Below are positions 30,387-35,403 of a stretch of DNA of 64,000 bases, piece by piece; positions within the stretch are counted from its first letter, which is position 1; every line of letters starts with the position of its first letter. This DNA is from a bacterium (lineage in GTDB: Bacteria; DRYD01): the NCBI GenBank assembly GCA_030549815.1, contig JAUQQQ010000003.1:106813-170812 (forward strand). Direction: 5' to 3'. A program made the position numbers and the translations under genes. The notes beneath the pieces were generated by a model. That model worked only from the letters and a program-made list of their open reading frames with translations. It was not told the DNA's origin and did not search any database.

Positions 30387-30881
30387 TTAAATACCCCCTT
30401 TTTCAATTATCCTATAGATTATCTTTGTAGTTGATACTTCAGGAATTAAAGAAAGAACTTTATATGTTATTCTATATTTTTCAATTATCCTCATTTCTGG
30501 TATTACTTTATCTTTATAATCTCCTCCTTTAAAGTATATATCGGGCTTAAGATATTCGATTAAATTTTCTGGAGTATCTTCATCAAAAACAGTCACAAAA
30601 TCTACGGCTTCTATCGCAGATAAAACTATAATTCTATCCTCTAAACTGTTAATCGGTTTTTTTATACCTTTTATTCTTCTTATACTTTCATCTGTATTTA
30701 CACCAACTACCAAAATATCACAATATTCCTTTGCTTGGAAAAGATAAGTTATATGACCCTTATGAATAATGTCAAAGCATCCATTTGTAAAACCAATTAT
30801 TTTCCCATTTTGTTTATAACTTTCTATTATTGTTTTCAATTTTTGCCAATTGTAGAATATTTTATTTTCAAACCATCTCAT
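30387..30881 (-). CDS. hldC: D-glycero-beta-D-manno-heptose 1-phosphate adenylyltransferase
   Basis: It activates heptose-1-phosphate to ADP-heptose for the LPS inner core (the RfaE domain II function). The 164-residue product has the nucleotidyltransferase signature TNGCFDIIHKGHITYL with HxGH at residues 40-43, VVGVNTDESIRRIKG near 70, and YFKGGDYKDKVIPE near 135. The start overlaps the end of the kinase gene by 14 bases. Kinase and transferase are separate genes, unlike the fused HldE of E. coli. Confidence 0.92.
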   Translation of the reverse strand: MRWFENKIFYNWQKLKTIIESYKQNGKIIGFTNGCFDIIHKGHITYLFQAKEYCDILVVGVNTDESIRRIKGIKKPINSLEDRIIVLSAIEAVDFVTVFDEDTPENLIEYLKPDIYFKGGDYKDKVIPEMRIIEKYRITYKVLSLIPEVSTTKIIYRIIEKGGI

Positions 30882-31935
30882 TTTGTTTTTCCCCTTTTTT
30901 TATTTTAGTTATACTATAATTTACAACTTTACCATTTGTTTTTTGCATTTTTGAAAAATAATTAATTAAATCAGAAGGCTTTACTGCTATTGTTCCAGGT
31001 TTTGAGACGCAAATTGAACCCGCAATATTTGATAATATACCACATTCTAAAATACTTAATCCCGTTGAATAGAATAGTCCAAAAATTGAGATTACGTTAT
31101 CTCCTGCTCCCGTAACATCAAAAACCTCTACCTCTATCCCGTCTACCTTTATAAAGTTATCATTACTCATTATACATAATCCATCTTTACCCAAAGTTAC
31201 TACAAGATTTATGACATTATAAGTTTTTACGAAATCTACCATATTTTCTTGTAATTCCTTGCTTAAATTTATTTCCTTACTTATTTGTTCAAATTCTTTT
31301 TTATTTAGAGAAAGAAGGTCAATTTTTTGATTTTTTAAAAAAGAAGAAAAAGCTTTAAAATTGGAGGGTTTAATCGATAAGAAAATATTCTTGCTTTTAA
31401 GATAATTTAGTATTAAGTTTAAACTATCTTTAGTTAATAATCCTTTATTATAGTCGATAATGAAAATTGAATCAAATCTATCTTTGATTTTTGCCAAATT
31501 TTCTTCGAGTATTTTTTCAGGTATTATTAGATTTTCTTTTTCCCTATCAACTCTTGCTATTTGTTGATTGTTATGTGCTATTAATCTTGTTTTCACGATT
31601 GTTTTATCATAAGAAAAACTTAAATCTTTTATTCCATATCTTTTTAGAAGATTTTTTATCCTTGTTGAAAATTGGTCTTTACCTATGAATCCTAATAAAC
31701 TTACGTTATTAGAATAATAGGAAAGGATTTTAGCGACGTTAGCGGCTCCCCCTAAATCATTCCATTCTTTTTCTACTCTCAACACGGGAACTGGAGCTTC
31801 TGGAGAAATCCTATCAACAACCCCCTTTAACCACCTATCTAATATTATATCTCCAATAACCAATATTCTTAAATTTTTTAATCTATCTATTTTTTCGTTT
31901 ATTTTTCCTACTAAATTACTTAGCTGCTGTTTCAT
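30868..31935 (-). CDS. hldA: D-glycero-beta-D-manno-heptose-7-phosphate kinase (PfkB family)
   Basis: It phosphorylates heptose-7-phosphate at C1 in LPS core synthesis (RfaE domain I). The 355-residue product has the family N-terminal motif VGDIILDRWLKGVVDRISPEAPVPVL near residue 27, LGGAANVA near 61, FIIDYNKGLLT near 158, and the C-terminal GAGD catalytic motif at 276-279 within VFDVTGAGDNV. It overlaps both neighbours, so the three envelope genes form one translational unit. Confidence 0.93.
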   Translation of the reverse strand: MKQQLSNLVGKINEKIDRLKNLRILVIGDIILDRWLKGVVDRISPEAPVPVLRVEKEWNDLGGAANVAKILSYYSNNVSLLGFIGKDQFSTRIKNLLKRYGIKDLSFSYDKTIVKTRLIAHNNQQIARVDREKENLIIPEKILEENLAKIKDRFDSIFIIDYNKGLLTKDSLNLILNYLKSKNIFLSIKPSNFKAFSSFLKNQKIDLLSLNKKEFEQISKEINLSKELQENMVDFVKTYNVINLVVTLGKDGLCIMSNDNFIKVDGIEVEVFDVTGAGDNVISIFGLFYSTGLSILECGILSNIAGSICVSKPGTIAVKPSDLINYFSKMQKTNGKVVNYSITKIKKGEKQNEMV

Positions 31936-32920
31936 TTTTTTTATATACTCTTGCGGGATTTCCTATAACAATAGTTTCTGGAGGAACATCTTTTGTAACT
32001 ACACTTCCTGCACCAACATAAGAATTTGGACCTATTGTTTTGGGTGAGATTATCACAGCATTAGAACCAATAAATGAATTTTCTTTGATAATTGAAGTAT
32101 ATTTATTTTTACCGTCATAGTTAGCAAAAACTACACCTGCACCTATATTCACATTTTTCTCTATTATTAAATCTCCTAAATATGCCAAATGAGATGCTTT
32201 TAAATTTCCTTCTGCTCTTATGTTTTTACATTCTACAAAAGCACCTATCTTTGAATTCTCTATAACATTGTTTTCCCTTAAATGACTAAAAGGACCAATA
32301 CTATTTAGATTCATCAATTGATTTTTTCTTATAACGCTAAACAGAATCCTATTATCATTACCTATTTCTGAATCAACTATATAACAAGAGGGACCTATTT
32401 TGTTCCTATCCTTCACTTTTGTTCTTATTAAAAACGTATTATCCATTATTACATTATGTTTTCCTATTTCTGTTAAAGGACAAATGAAAATATTGTTTCC
32501 CAAAATAACATTATCTTTTATCTTTAAGGATTTTTTCTGTATCTCATCAAAAAGTTTTTTAAAACTACTTAATTCTTTTATTTTAAAAATATATTCTTTT
32601 GACCTTTTTATTTTTCCTTTATTTGACAATATTTCTTCTCTTTTATAATACAACAGAGGGGAGTTAAAGTCTATAACGATATGGTTTTTTGAATCCAATT
32701 CTTTGTTAGTTAGGTCAAAATCGAAATTAAGTGAAATACTGTGATCTTTTATCAATTTTTCTATTAAGCTGCTATTATGCTCATTAGTTTTAAACAGTAC
32801 TTTTTTGTTAATATTATTGCTAAGAAATTCTAATAATTTAAGAGTAGGGAGACAAACGGGGTAATAAAAATACGAATCGTCATATTTCCAAATTTCTTCT
32901 TGTGCTAAAACTATTATCAT
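31916..32920 (-). CDS. GlmU-like left-handed beta-helix acyltransferase with a divergent N-domain
   Basis: The C-terminal ~200 residues of this 334-residue protein are a hexapeptide-repeat acetyltransferase very close to the GlmU C-domain: NVNIGAGVVFANYDGKNKYTS near 257, FIGSNAVIISPKTIGPNSYVGAGSVVTKDVP near 285-313. The N-terminal ~120 residues lack the GlmU uridylyltransferase signature (LAAGxGTRM); the equivalent start is IIVLAQEEIWKYDDSY. It may acetylate a sugar phosphate without making a nucleotide sugar, or act on another sugar of the LPS path. It overlaps hldA by 20 bases and the lyase gene by 4. Confidence 0.75.
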   Translation of the reverse strand: MIIVLAQEEIWKYDDSYFYYPVCLPTLKLLEFLSNNINKKVLFKTNEHNSSLIEKLIKDHSISLNFDFDLTNKELDSKNHIVIDFNSPLLYYKREEILSNKGKIKRSKEYIFKIKELSSFKKLFDEIQKKSLKIKDNVILGNNIFICPLTEIGKHNVIMDNTFLIRTKVKDRNKIGPSCYIVDSEIGNDNRILFSVIRKNQLMNLNSIGPFSHLRENNVIENSKIGAFVECKNIRAEGNLKASHLAYLGDLIIEKNVNIGAGVVFANYDGKNKYTSIIKENSFIGSNAVIISPKTIGPNSYVGAGSVVTKDVPPETIVIGNPARVYKKNETAAK

Positions 32921-35403
32921 AAGCTTGCTGTTTTCTTTAGCGGTTCAAACCTGATTGTGAAAAATCTTAAGAATGGAGGCTCATAAGTTATAGACAAACC
33001 ATTTATCCTTTCTCTTATTTTATAAACTTCATTTATAACATCCTTTGTATATTCCATTTGTTCATTTGTATATACTCTTCGAGGAATTGTTATCCTAACC
33101 AATTCTAGTTCGGGGTATTTATGTTTTCCTGTTTTTGGGTCTCTACCTGCGGAAACTATTCCTCTTTCCATTGTTCTAATTCCACCATGTAAATATATGT
33201 ATGCTGCGAGAGTTTGTGCAGGGAATTCATCCTGCTTTATATGTGGTAAGAATTTTTTTGCATCTAAATAAATAGCATGACCACCTATTGGTTTTACAAT
33301 TGGGATCCCAGAATCTTCTAACAACTTACCTAAATATCTTACTTGTTCTATTCTGTTTTTTAAATAAAAATAATCTGTCATTTCGATTATTCCTTGAGCT
33401 AACATTGCTATATCTCTTGCTGACAAACCACCATCATAAATTTCTCCTTCAAATATCTGTTGTAATTTTTTCATTTTTTCATACAATTCTTTCGACCTAA
33501 TTAATATTAAGCCACTTATATTGGTTAGCGGATCTTTTTTTGCAGATATGGTAGCTGCATCTGATAACGACATTATTTCTCTTATTATTTCTTTTATACT
33601 CTTATTTTGGTAACCATATTCTCTTTCTTTTATGAAGAAAGCATTTTCTGCTATTCTGGTAGCATCAAGGACTAATGGTATTTTATAATGATCACAAACT
33701 TTTCTTATTTGTTTGAGATTTTCTAAGGATACTGGTTGTCCACCTGCCATATTTACATTATTTTCAACACATACATAAGCAATCTTTTCTGCTCCATTAC
33801 TCTCTATGAAATTAACCAATTTATCAACATCTATATTCCCTTTAAACGGATGCTCTATTTCTGGTTTGTATGCTTCCTCGATTATTAGATCAACAAAAAC
33901 TCCTTTTGCGTACTCTTGATGAAAACGTGTTGTGGTAAAGTACATATTGTTTATTACATATTGATTTGGTTTAATCATTGTTTGAGAAAGTATGTGTTCA
34001 GCTGCTCTACCTTGATGGGTAGGTAAAAAATAATGATATCCAAATACATCTTCTATAGCGTTTTGTAGCAAGTTATAAGCTCTTTTCTGATCATATTTTA
34101 TCCCTAAGCTCCATTGTTCATCACTCATGCTACTTGTTCCACTATCTGTAAGAAAATCTAAATAAACCTCTTCTGCGGGAATCAAGAAAGTATTATAACC
34201 TGCTTTTTCTAAAATCTCTTTCCTTCTTTCGAAAGATGATAATTTTATTATTTCTATTCCTTTGAAATTGTAAGTTGTGTAATTTCTTGGATCTATGTAA
34301 TCAACCAAAAAGTTTTTGCTATCGTGTAAAGATTTTTGAAAACTATCGATAAACAGTTCCAAGTTTTGTTTTTGATACCTTCGTGAGGGAATGTAAATTA
34401 GCAAGTATTCATTATTTGCTTTAGCTCTTGATTGCCCATATAAAAATAAAGAATTATTTAGATTAATTAAGTTTTGACCACTTTTGGATTTTATGTAAAA
34501 ATGATGAGTGGAGAAATATGGACTAATTTCAAGATCACTTTTTTCTACTATCAATTTTTTTAGTTCATCATATAAAAACTTTATGTTTTCTTTTTTGTAT
34601 TCCCAAATTTGGTTATTTGTTGCTTCTATTAATCCTTGGTTTATTATTTCCATATCTCTTCCTGCTAAACCACCATAAGTATGCAAGCCTTCAAAAGCAA
34701 CCACCCACTCTGTTAGATATTCGTAATACTTAAAACTATTTGTTAAAATTATTGCCCCTGTATTGCACATTAAATCAAAACAACAATCTATTACTGCTAT
34801 ATCTACTAAATCTGAGAGTTTTTTTATTTTTTCTAAATCTGAATTAGCTAAAGAAAAAATACTTGAAAAATCGGCTATTGTTAGTATGGAACTTTCTTTT
34901 AATAAAGCCAGATGCTTTTCTATTTGCTCGAATGTTTTTGAAAAGCATTCTATTGAATTTAAAAAGATGATAGAAATTTGTGAAGAACCGTTGTAGTTAA
35001 TTTTATAGTATTCCATAAGATTATGAAAATCAATATTCTCTATTGGATTGTAATGAACCAAATTTAATTTAAAATCATTAAATTTTTCAAGTATTTTTAT
35101 TATTAGATTCCAAGCTCCTTTTATGTTATGTGCTGGAACTACGTATTCTTTATTAAATATTTCTTTTACTGTGTTGTTTAGCTTTATGAAATTTTTACTT
35201 CCTGCATAGGATTCATCACCTAAAAATAAAGCTGCATATTGGTTTTCACTAAGAGCATTCAAACTTATCTTTGATAAATCAGTCCATATATATTCTTCTT
35301 CTATCAAATTTGCATTGTTTTCATGGGATTCTAATATATTCATTCTTTGTTGTATATCGAGAAATTTCGGAAAATAGACTATTTTAGCTTTATATGGTTG
35401 CAT
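32917..35403 (-). CDS. Tandem-fused tyrosine phenol-lyase/tryptophanase-like protein
   Basis: The 828 residues are two copies of a PLP beta-eliminating lyase. The C-terminal half (about 372-828) keeps PLP and substrate residues: TDSGTSSMSDEQW at 419, PTHQGR at 461-466, YFTTTR at 488-493, DATR at 580-583, the Lys pair SAKKD at 620-624, RTMERG at 743-748 and IPRRVY at 773-778, all nearer to tyrosine phenol-lyase than to tryptophanase. The N-terminal half (about 1-370) has lost the Lys motif, THQGR and DATR but keeps GDESYAGS (62-69) and EGLHTYGGLAGRDME (238-252). Those two are degraded in the C-half (EGEIYDGGLSARDIA). AAAGGGG precedes the ATG. Confidence 0.88.
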   Translation of the reverse strand: MQPYKAKIVYFPKFLDIQQRMNILESHENNANLIEEEYIWTDLSKISLNALSENQYAALFLGDESYAGSKNFIKLNNTVKEIFNKEYVVPAHNIKGAWNLIIKILEKFNDFKLNLVHYNPIENIDFHNLMEYYKINYNGSSQISIIFLNSIECFSKTFEQIEKHLALLKESSILTIADFSSIFSLANSDLEKIKKLSDLVDIAVIDCCFDLMCNTGAIILTNSFKYYEYLTEWVVAFEGLHTYGGLAGRDMEIINQGLIEATNNQIWEYKKENIKFLYDELKKLIVEKSDLEISPYFSTHHFYIKSKSGQNLINLNNSLFLYGQSRAKANNEYLLIYIPSRRYQKQNLELFIDSFQKSLHDSKNFLVDYIDPRNYTTYNFKGIEIIKLSSFERRKEILEKAGYNTFLIPAEEVYLDFLTDSGTSSMSDEQWSLGIKYDQKRAYNLLQNAIEDVFGYHYFLPTHQGRAAEHILSQTMIKPNQYVINNMYFTTTRFHQEYAKGVFVDLIIEEAYKPEIEHPFKGNIDVDKLVNFIESNGAEKIAYVCVENNVNMAGGQPVSLENLKQIRKVCDHYKIPLVLDATRIAENAFFIKEREYGYQNKSIKEIIREIMSLSDAATISAKKDPLTNISGLILIRSKELYEKMKKLQQIFEGEIYDGGLSARDIAMLAQGIIEMTDYFYLKNRIEQVRYLGKLLEDSGIPIVKPIGGHAIYLDAKKFLPHIKQDEFPAQTLAAYIYLHGGIRTMERGIVSAGRDPKTGKHKYPELELVRITIPRRVYTNEQMEYTKDVINEVYKIRERINGLSITYEPPFLRFFTIRFEPLKKTASL

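Follow-up and report, generated by a model that had tools for sequence, protein, structure and literature searches.

Within a 64,000-nucleotide stretch of bacterial DNA (hereafter the window), a single open reading frame of 828 codons on the minus strand, with an ATG start and no internal stops, encodes two copies of a tyrosine phenol-lyase (TPL)-like protein in one chain. This reading, advanced in the original prediction, was borne out by Pfam, NCBIfam and profile-profile comparison. Both halves exceed the 27-bit gathering score of the Pfam Beta-eliminating lyase family (PF01212), the C-half with 229.8 bits (E=5.6e-68) and the N-half with 40.5; the N-half match is weak and partial in single-sequence search (E=2.7e-10, residues 49-105), and its profile-profile comparison, made against 19 unfused relatives, extends over 352 columns (probability 100, E=4.5e-46, 24% identity). 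Pfam, NCBIfam and PDB sequence search all identify the C-half as a beta-eliminating lyase of TPL type; it passes the threshold of the tryptophanase/TPL subfamily model NF009709 (at least 285 bits) with 556.7, the N-half alone staying below it with 123.3. The cut-off of the TPL equivalog TIGR02618 (720.7 bits) is missed both by the C-half (595.6) and by the whole chain (709), so that the fusion, though predicted to be TPL-like in its working, is not filed as an equivalog. The N-half of the window type (about 365 aa) is a shortened, fast-diverging domain, and no internal ATG was seen just upstream of the C-half start in the window gene. The features of the gene are as follows:

32917..35403, minus strand: fused double TPL-like gene, 828 aa, a single ORF with full-length relatives in 10 further genomes
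34309..35403, minus strand: N-half, residues 1-365, putative dead donor domain without the PLP lysine (profile and residue map; dN/dS 0.10-0.18)
35197..35220, minus strand: GDESYAGS of the N-half, residues 62-69, present in 11/11 N-halves and 0/11 C-halves
34648..34695, minus strand: FEGLHTYGGLAGRDME of the N-half, residues 237-252, nearly invariant among N-halves
32920..34290, minus strand: C-half, residues 372-828, predicted TPL-type PLP-binding catalytic domain (profiles, residue map, fold match to TPL)
34066..34110, minus strand: C-half site of the lost GDEAYAGS donor segment, residues 432-446, with a 4-residue deletion and substitution
34006..34020, minus strand: THQGR of the C-half, residues 462-466, PLP phosphate site (TPL Gln98-Arg100), kept in 11/11 C-halves
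33655..33666, minus strand: DATR of the C-half, residues 580-583, TPL Asp214/Arg217 (residue map)
33532..33546, minus strand: SAKKD of the C-half, residues 620-624, with Lys623 equivalent to TPL Lys257 (PLP Schiff base), in 11/11 C-halves and 0/11 N-halves
33412..33453, minus strand: FEGEIYDGGLSARD of the C-half, residues 651-664, degenerate second donor segment (residue map)
33163..33165, minus strand: Arg747 of the C-half, TPL Arg381, tyrosine specificity residue; the T124/R381/F448 signature is found in all C-halves

GDESYAGS, THQGR, DATR and SAKKD all lie where the original prediction had placed them, and RTMERG and IPRRVY are both present in the C-half. Within GDESYAGS, Glu64 corresponds to TPL Glu69, which we take to be a cation ligand coming from the neighbouring subunit, and Tyr66 to the donor Tyr71; within FEGLHTYGGLAGRDME, Leu240 corresponds to Met288 and Tyr243 to the donor Tyr291. 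The C-half has SLGIKYDQKR, four residues shorter, in place of GDEAYAGS, and YDGG where the TPL family has TYGG.

Upstream of the fusion gene, and in the same orientation, are an imidazolonepropionase-like gene and genes for carboxypeptidases of the M32 and M14 types. On the downstream side, a GlmU-like acyltransferase gene (31916-32920), whose first part is divergent, overlaps the fusion gene by 4 bases and precedes an HldE-type kinase and adenylyltransferase encoded as two separate genes (window 30387-31935); FabF and GroEL genes are found downstream as well. The downstream order recurs in G002 and G003 but in none of the other lineages compared, and this synteny (GlmU-like, HldE-like, FabF, GroEL) looks like housekeeping. 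The surroundings fit a peptide- and amino-acid-using organism, but no dedicated operon or transporter context for tyrosine degradation was found among them.

Complementary residue loss in eleven fusions

The TPL/tryptophanase family works as catalytic dimers, in which the PLP held by one monomer is contacted by its neighbour; in E. coli tryptophanase, a tetramer made of such dimers, Tyr74 and Tyr307 form hydrogen bonds to the phosphate of the PLP in the adjacent subunit, and the Y74F variant has negligible activity (PMC2770544). By alignment these two tyrosines are Tyr71 and Tyr291 of TPL, so the donation across subunits that the original prediction presupposed is backed by the tryptophanase contacts. 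Tyr71 also serves, with Arg381, in leaving-group protonation in TPL (PMC3870968).

A search of about 1,480 genomes, suggested at the outset as a check, yielded 10 further intact copies, giving full-length fusions in 11 genomes including that of the window. Four are in the window's family (G002 and G003 of the same genus, G004 and G005 of a sister genus), two in an order of Bacteroidota/Chlorobiota (G387 and G928; the public contigs of this order, L031 and L032, are labelled Bacteroidetes and Chlorobiota), and four in another family of the phylum of G387 (G437, G445, G782 and G783). Only fragments of the fusion are present in G001. A Bacteroidetes copy, in G386 (L031/L052), is frameshifted near residue 594 into frames of 618 and 226 codons; because the copies in the closely related G387 and G928 are whole, we attribute the split to sequencing error or to recent disruption of the gene. 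Neither split two-gene versions nor fusions with both halves intact in their motifs occurred among the well-ranked matches listed, a few of which were read at full length, and a search of a plasmid collection gave single-length TPL places only among the 8 matches listed. Closer inspection of the long open frames at the G780, G106 and G316 matches showed no double lyase; at L105 (G316:C206:2500-6147, minus strand), a stop-free frame of 624 codons runs from a GntR-type helix-turn-helix into an unfused TPL, possibly a regulator-enzyme fusion or directly abutting genes.

We mapped 21 functional positions, each half numbered by C. freundii TPL (2ez1 sequence), in the 11 full-length fusions, which span three lineages, and in 56 unfused relatives. 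All 56 relatives keep Glu69, Tyr71, Gln98, Arg217, Lys257, Tyr291 and Arg404. Among the fusions, every N-half keeps Glu69, Tyr71 and Tyr291, carries Leu at position 288 like most TPL-type relatives, and has lost Lys257 (the residue there being F, N, Y, E or G), Gln98 (Asn or Ala in 11/11), Arg217, Arg404 and the Phe448/449 pair. Every C-half keeps Gln98, Gly99, Arg100, Phe123, Thr124, Asn185, Asp214, Arg217, Ser254, Lys256, Lys257, Asn262, Arg381, Arg404, Phe448 and Phe449, and has Asp or Asn in place of Tyr291 and a replaced Tyr71 segment (11/11, with a 4-residue deletion in 7/11). In the C-halves of G004 and G005 a Tyr was aligned automatically to the Tyr71 column, yet the segment reads IKYQSDSAY and GDEAYAGS is gone; the C-halves of the G437 family retain Glu at position 69.

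The PLP lysine and the acceptor-site residues of TPL are accordingly in the C-half in all 11 fusions. In none do Tyr71 and Tyr291 share a domain with that lysine, as they do in TPL, the donors being in the N-halves; a homologous half that lacks the lysine and retains the cross-interface residues, the arrangement of a pseudo-dimer of the serine palmitoyltransferase type, is present in all. Same motifs kept, or lost, in both halves were found in 0/11 fusions. Since the N-halves hold the residues that are lent and the C-halves the site that borrows them, a complete site can form at one of the two possible places and no more; each half has lost the active-site parts kept by the other, and the two probably build one working site jointly. 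The original prediction had called the N-half the mirror image of the C-half, a description that suits its function and fails for its extent, as the N-half of the window type is shortened and fast-diverging. The shortening is graded: N-halves of the G437 family are nearly full length, and those of the Bacteroidota/Chlorobiota order and of the window genus measure about 370 aa.

All unfused paralogues read in the fusion-bearing genomes are of the tryptophanase type (D/I-V/H at TPL 124/381/448), so the fusion is the sole TPL-type gene seen in those genomes. The window genome has one such paralogue (L002, G000:C6:41028-42350), with a D/V/H signature, a long branch and LFDESYAG in place of the usual GDE motif.

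Predicted structure, selection and history

An AF2 model of the window protein (828 aa), built on a 32-row alignment, reached a mean pLDDT of 85.1 and a pTM of 0.80, with low confidence chiefly at the linker (residues 362-385) and the termini; the G437 protein (892 aa) gave 80.5 and 0.79. One half alone would account for a TM-score (TMq) of about 0.53 normalised to the full chain, and a pTM near 0.8 thus indicates that the models position the two halves relative to each other with some confidence. The modelled C-half matches TPL with Z 57.8 and an rmsd of 1.3 A over 443 residues. All matches listed in a fold search with the full model were to the C-half, as one domain fills the list.

Across six pairs, dN/dS is 0.10-0.18 for the N-half, and it is 0.04-0.06 for the C-half; values this far below 1 mean that both are maintained, the N-half more loosely. 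Identity between N-halves of different lineages falls to 28%, and 45 of 360 residues are invariant across the 11 N-halves; 25 of these 45 fall in the two donor segments, which together comprise 41 residues, a concentration not due to chance (hypergeometric P=5.6e-16). The separate, complementary and co-maintained conservation anticipated for the two halves held in all 11 fusions and all three lineages.

A tree from which the columns of the donor and active-site positions had been left out groups all 11 C-halves in a single clade (98/93) nested within the TPL branch, so the fusion arrangement is probably of single origin; one branch (98/95) sets the 11 N-halves apart, but their own branches are very long and the grouping may be artefactual. 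With the fastest N-halves left out, the branch remained too long, at 3.2 changes per column, to place their parent. The EGLHTYGG form of the N-halves resembles TPL-type and differs from tryptophanase-type relatives, and this likeness suggests duplication of a TPL gene. The simplest reading of these sequences would be a single origin with later spread, both vertical and lateral, and because of the shared origin the 11 cases do not count as 11 independent losses.

A predicted single-site lyase and its relatives

We consider it probable that the protein is a single-chain, single-site pseudo-dimer of TPL type, with a catalytic C-half and a dead donor N-half. The C-half would hold PLP on Lys623 together with the substrate residues; the catalytically dead N-half would sit where the second subunit of a normal catalytic dimer sits and supply Tyr66 (TPL Tyr71), Tyr243 (Tyr291), Leu240 (Met288) and Glu64 (Glu69) to the one site, the second, mirror-image site having been lost. 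Such a protein is predicted to bind one PLP per chain and, with TPL activity the most likely judging from its residues, to convert L-tyrosine to phenol, pyruvate and ammonia. The arrangement would have arisen probably once, by duplication/fusion and then complementary loss in the two halves. We infer the spatial contact, donation within the chain in preference to donation between chains, the activity and the substrate.

That the N-half is functionless, in a decaying duplicate or an assembly artefact, might be read from its shortening and divergence in the window family, but is scarcely credible given dN/dS far below 1 and the occurrence of an intact fusion across three lineages and 11 genomes, a recurrence that rules out assembly error or a chance ORF. 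Were it instead a regulatory or folding pseudoenzyme, with the C-half working alone or with its own kind, its kept segments would serve packing; the two donor segments are also part of the dimer interface, and the N-half diverges fast outside them. This reading is nevertheless quite improbable, as Tyr71, Tyr291 and Glu69 are invariant in all 11 N-halves and a homodimer of C-halves, all of which have lost Tyr71 and Tyr291, would have neither tyrosine.

Donation by the N-half to the C-half of another chain, in a domain-swapped dimer whose monomer is not self-sufficient, is rather unlikely: sequence alone fits intra- and interchain donation alike, the window-type linker is short (low-confidence residues 362-385) and tryptophanase itself is a tetramer of catalytic dimers (PMC2770544), but the single-chain models already reach pTM values of 0.80 and 0.79. 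There is a modest chance that the pseudo-dimer is correct and the substrate or reaction is other than tyrosine beta-elimination (with cysteine, serine or a different aromatic amino acid as candidates), since the family acts on several beta-substituted amino acids, changes of Tyr71 and of Arg381 affect substrates differently (PMC3870968), and the TPL equivalog cut-off is missed. Against it, T124, M379, R381, F448 and F449 are present in all C-halves, a set of the kind described as the residue exchange separating TPL from tryptophanase (PMC5805759); every C-half has the TPL set Thr124/Arg381/Phe448 and not the tryptophanase set. A pseudo-dimer with TPL activity is the reading we prefer.

Compared with TPL (EC 4.1.99.2, Citrobacter freundii, PDB 2ez1 and 7tcs), the C-half has 47-48% identity, the full acceptor site and the TPL specificity residues, and the same residues would cross the catalytic interface; unlike TPL, the fusion has both partners in one chain, each without the other's contribution, and would form a single site per pair where TPL forms two. 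With tryptophanase (EC 4.1.99.1) it is predicted to share the fold and the interface across which Tyr74 and Tyr307 are donated, but its C-half is without the D137/I396/H463-type signature. Outside the family, serine palmitoyltransferase LCB1/LCB2 is a homologous fold-type I PLP pair with one subunit devoid of the PLP lysine, and a single site is thought to operate in the heterodimer (PMC3794620). These partners, like the fusion, include one lysine-less homologue, but they are two unfused genes of the alpha-oxoamine synthase family. The glycine decarboxylase P-protein (GcvPA/GcvPB or fused), also a fold-type I PLP enzyme, combines, in its fused form, an inactive N-half with a C-half that binds PLP; it is the nearest mechanistic analogue, although as a decarboxylase that partners lipoyl protein it differs in family and reaction.

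With such dead-subunit, single-site heterodimers known among other fold-type I PLP enzymes, the earlier statement that no enzyme of this type had been described was too strong; it stands for the TPL/tryptophanase family, for which no fused or single-site member was found in the open-licence part of the literature. The fusion would be the first of the single-site type that we find in that family, with an unusually exact division of labour among residues. Automatic annotation as 'tyrosine phenol-lyase' or 'tryptophanase' would overlook the two-half arrangement.

We think it probable that this is a naturally evolved single-chain, single-site beta-eliminating lyase, produced by duplication/fusion and then a strict division of labour between the halves at the level of residues; the fusion may have gained control, stability or substrate scope absent from the symmetric two-site enzyme. 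As each interface residue could be mutated in just one of the halves, one active site could be studied without its twin, which bears on subunit communication in TPL and tryptophanase and also on biocatalysis, TPL being used there to make tyrosine and DOPA. The family would offer a natural case of complementary degenerative loss (subfunctionalisation), played out residue by residue over a shared active site.
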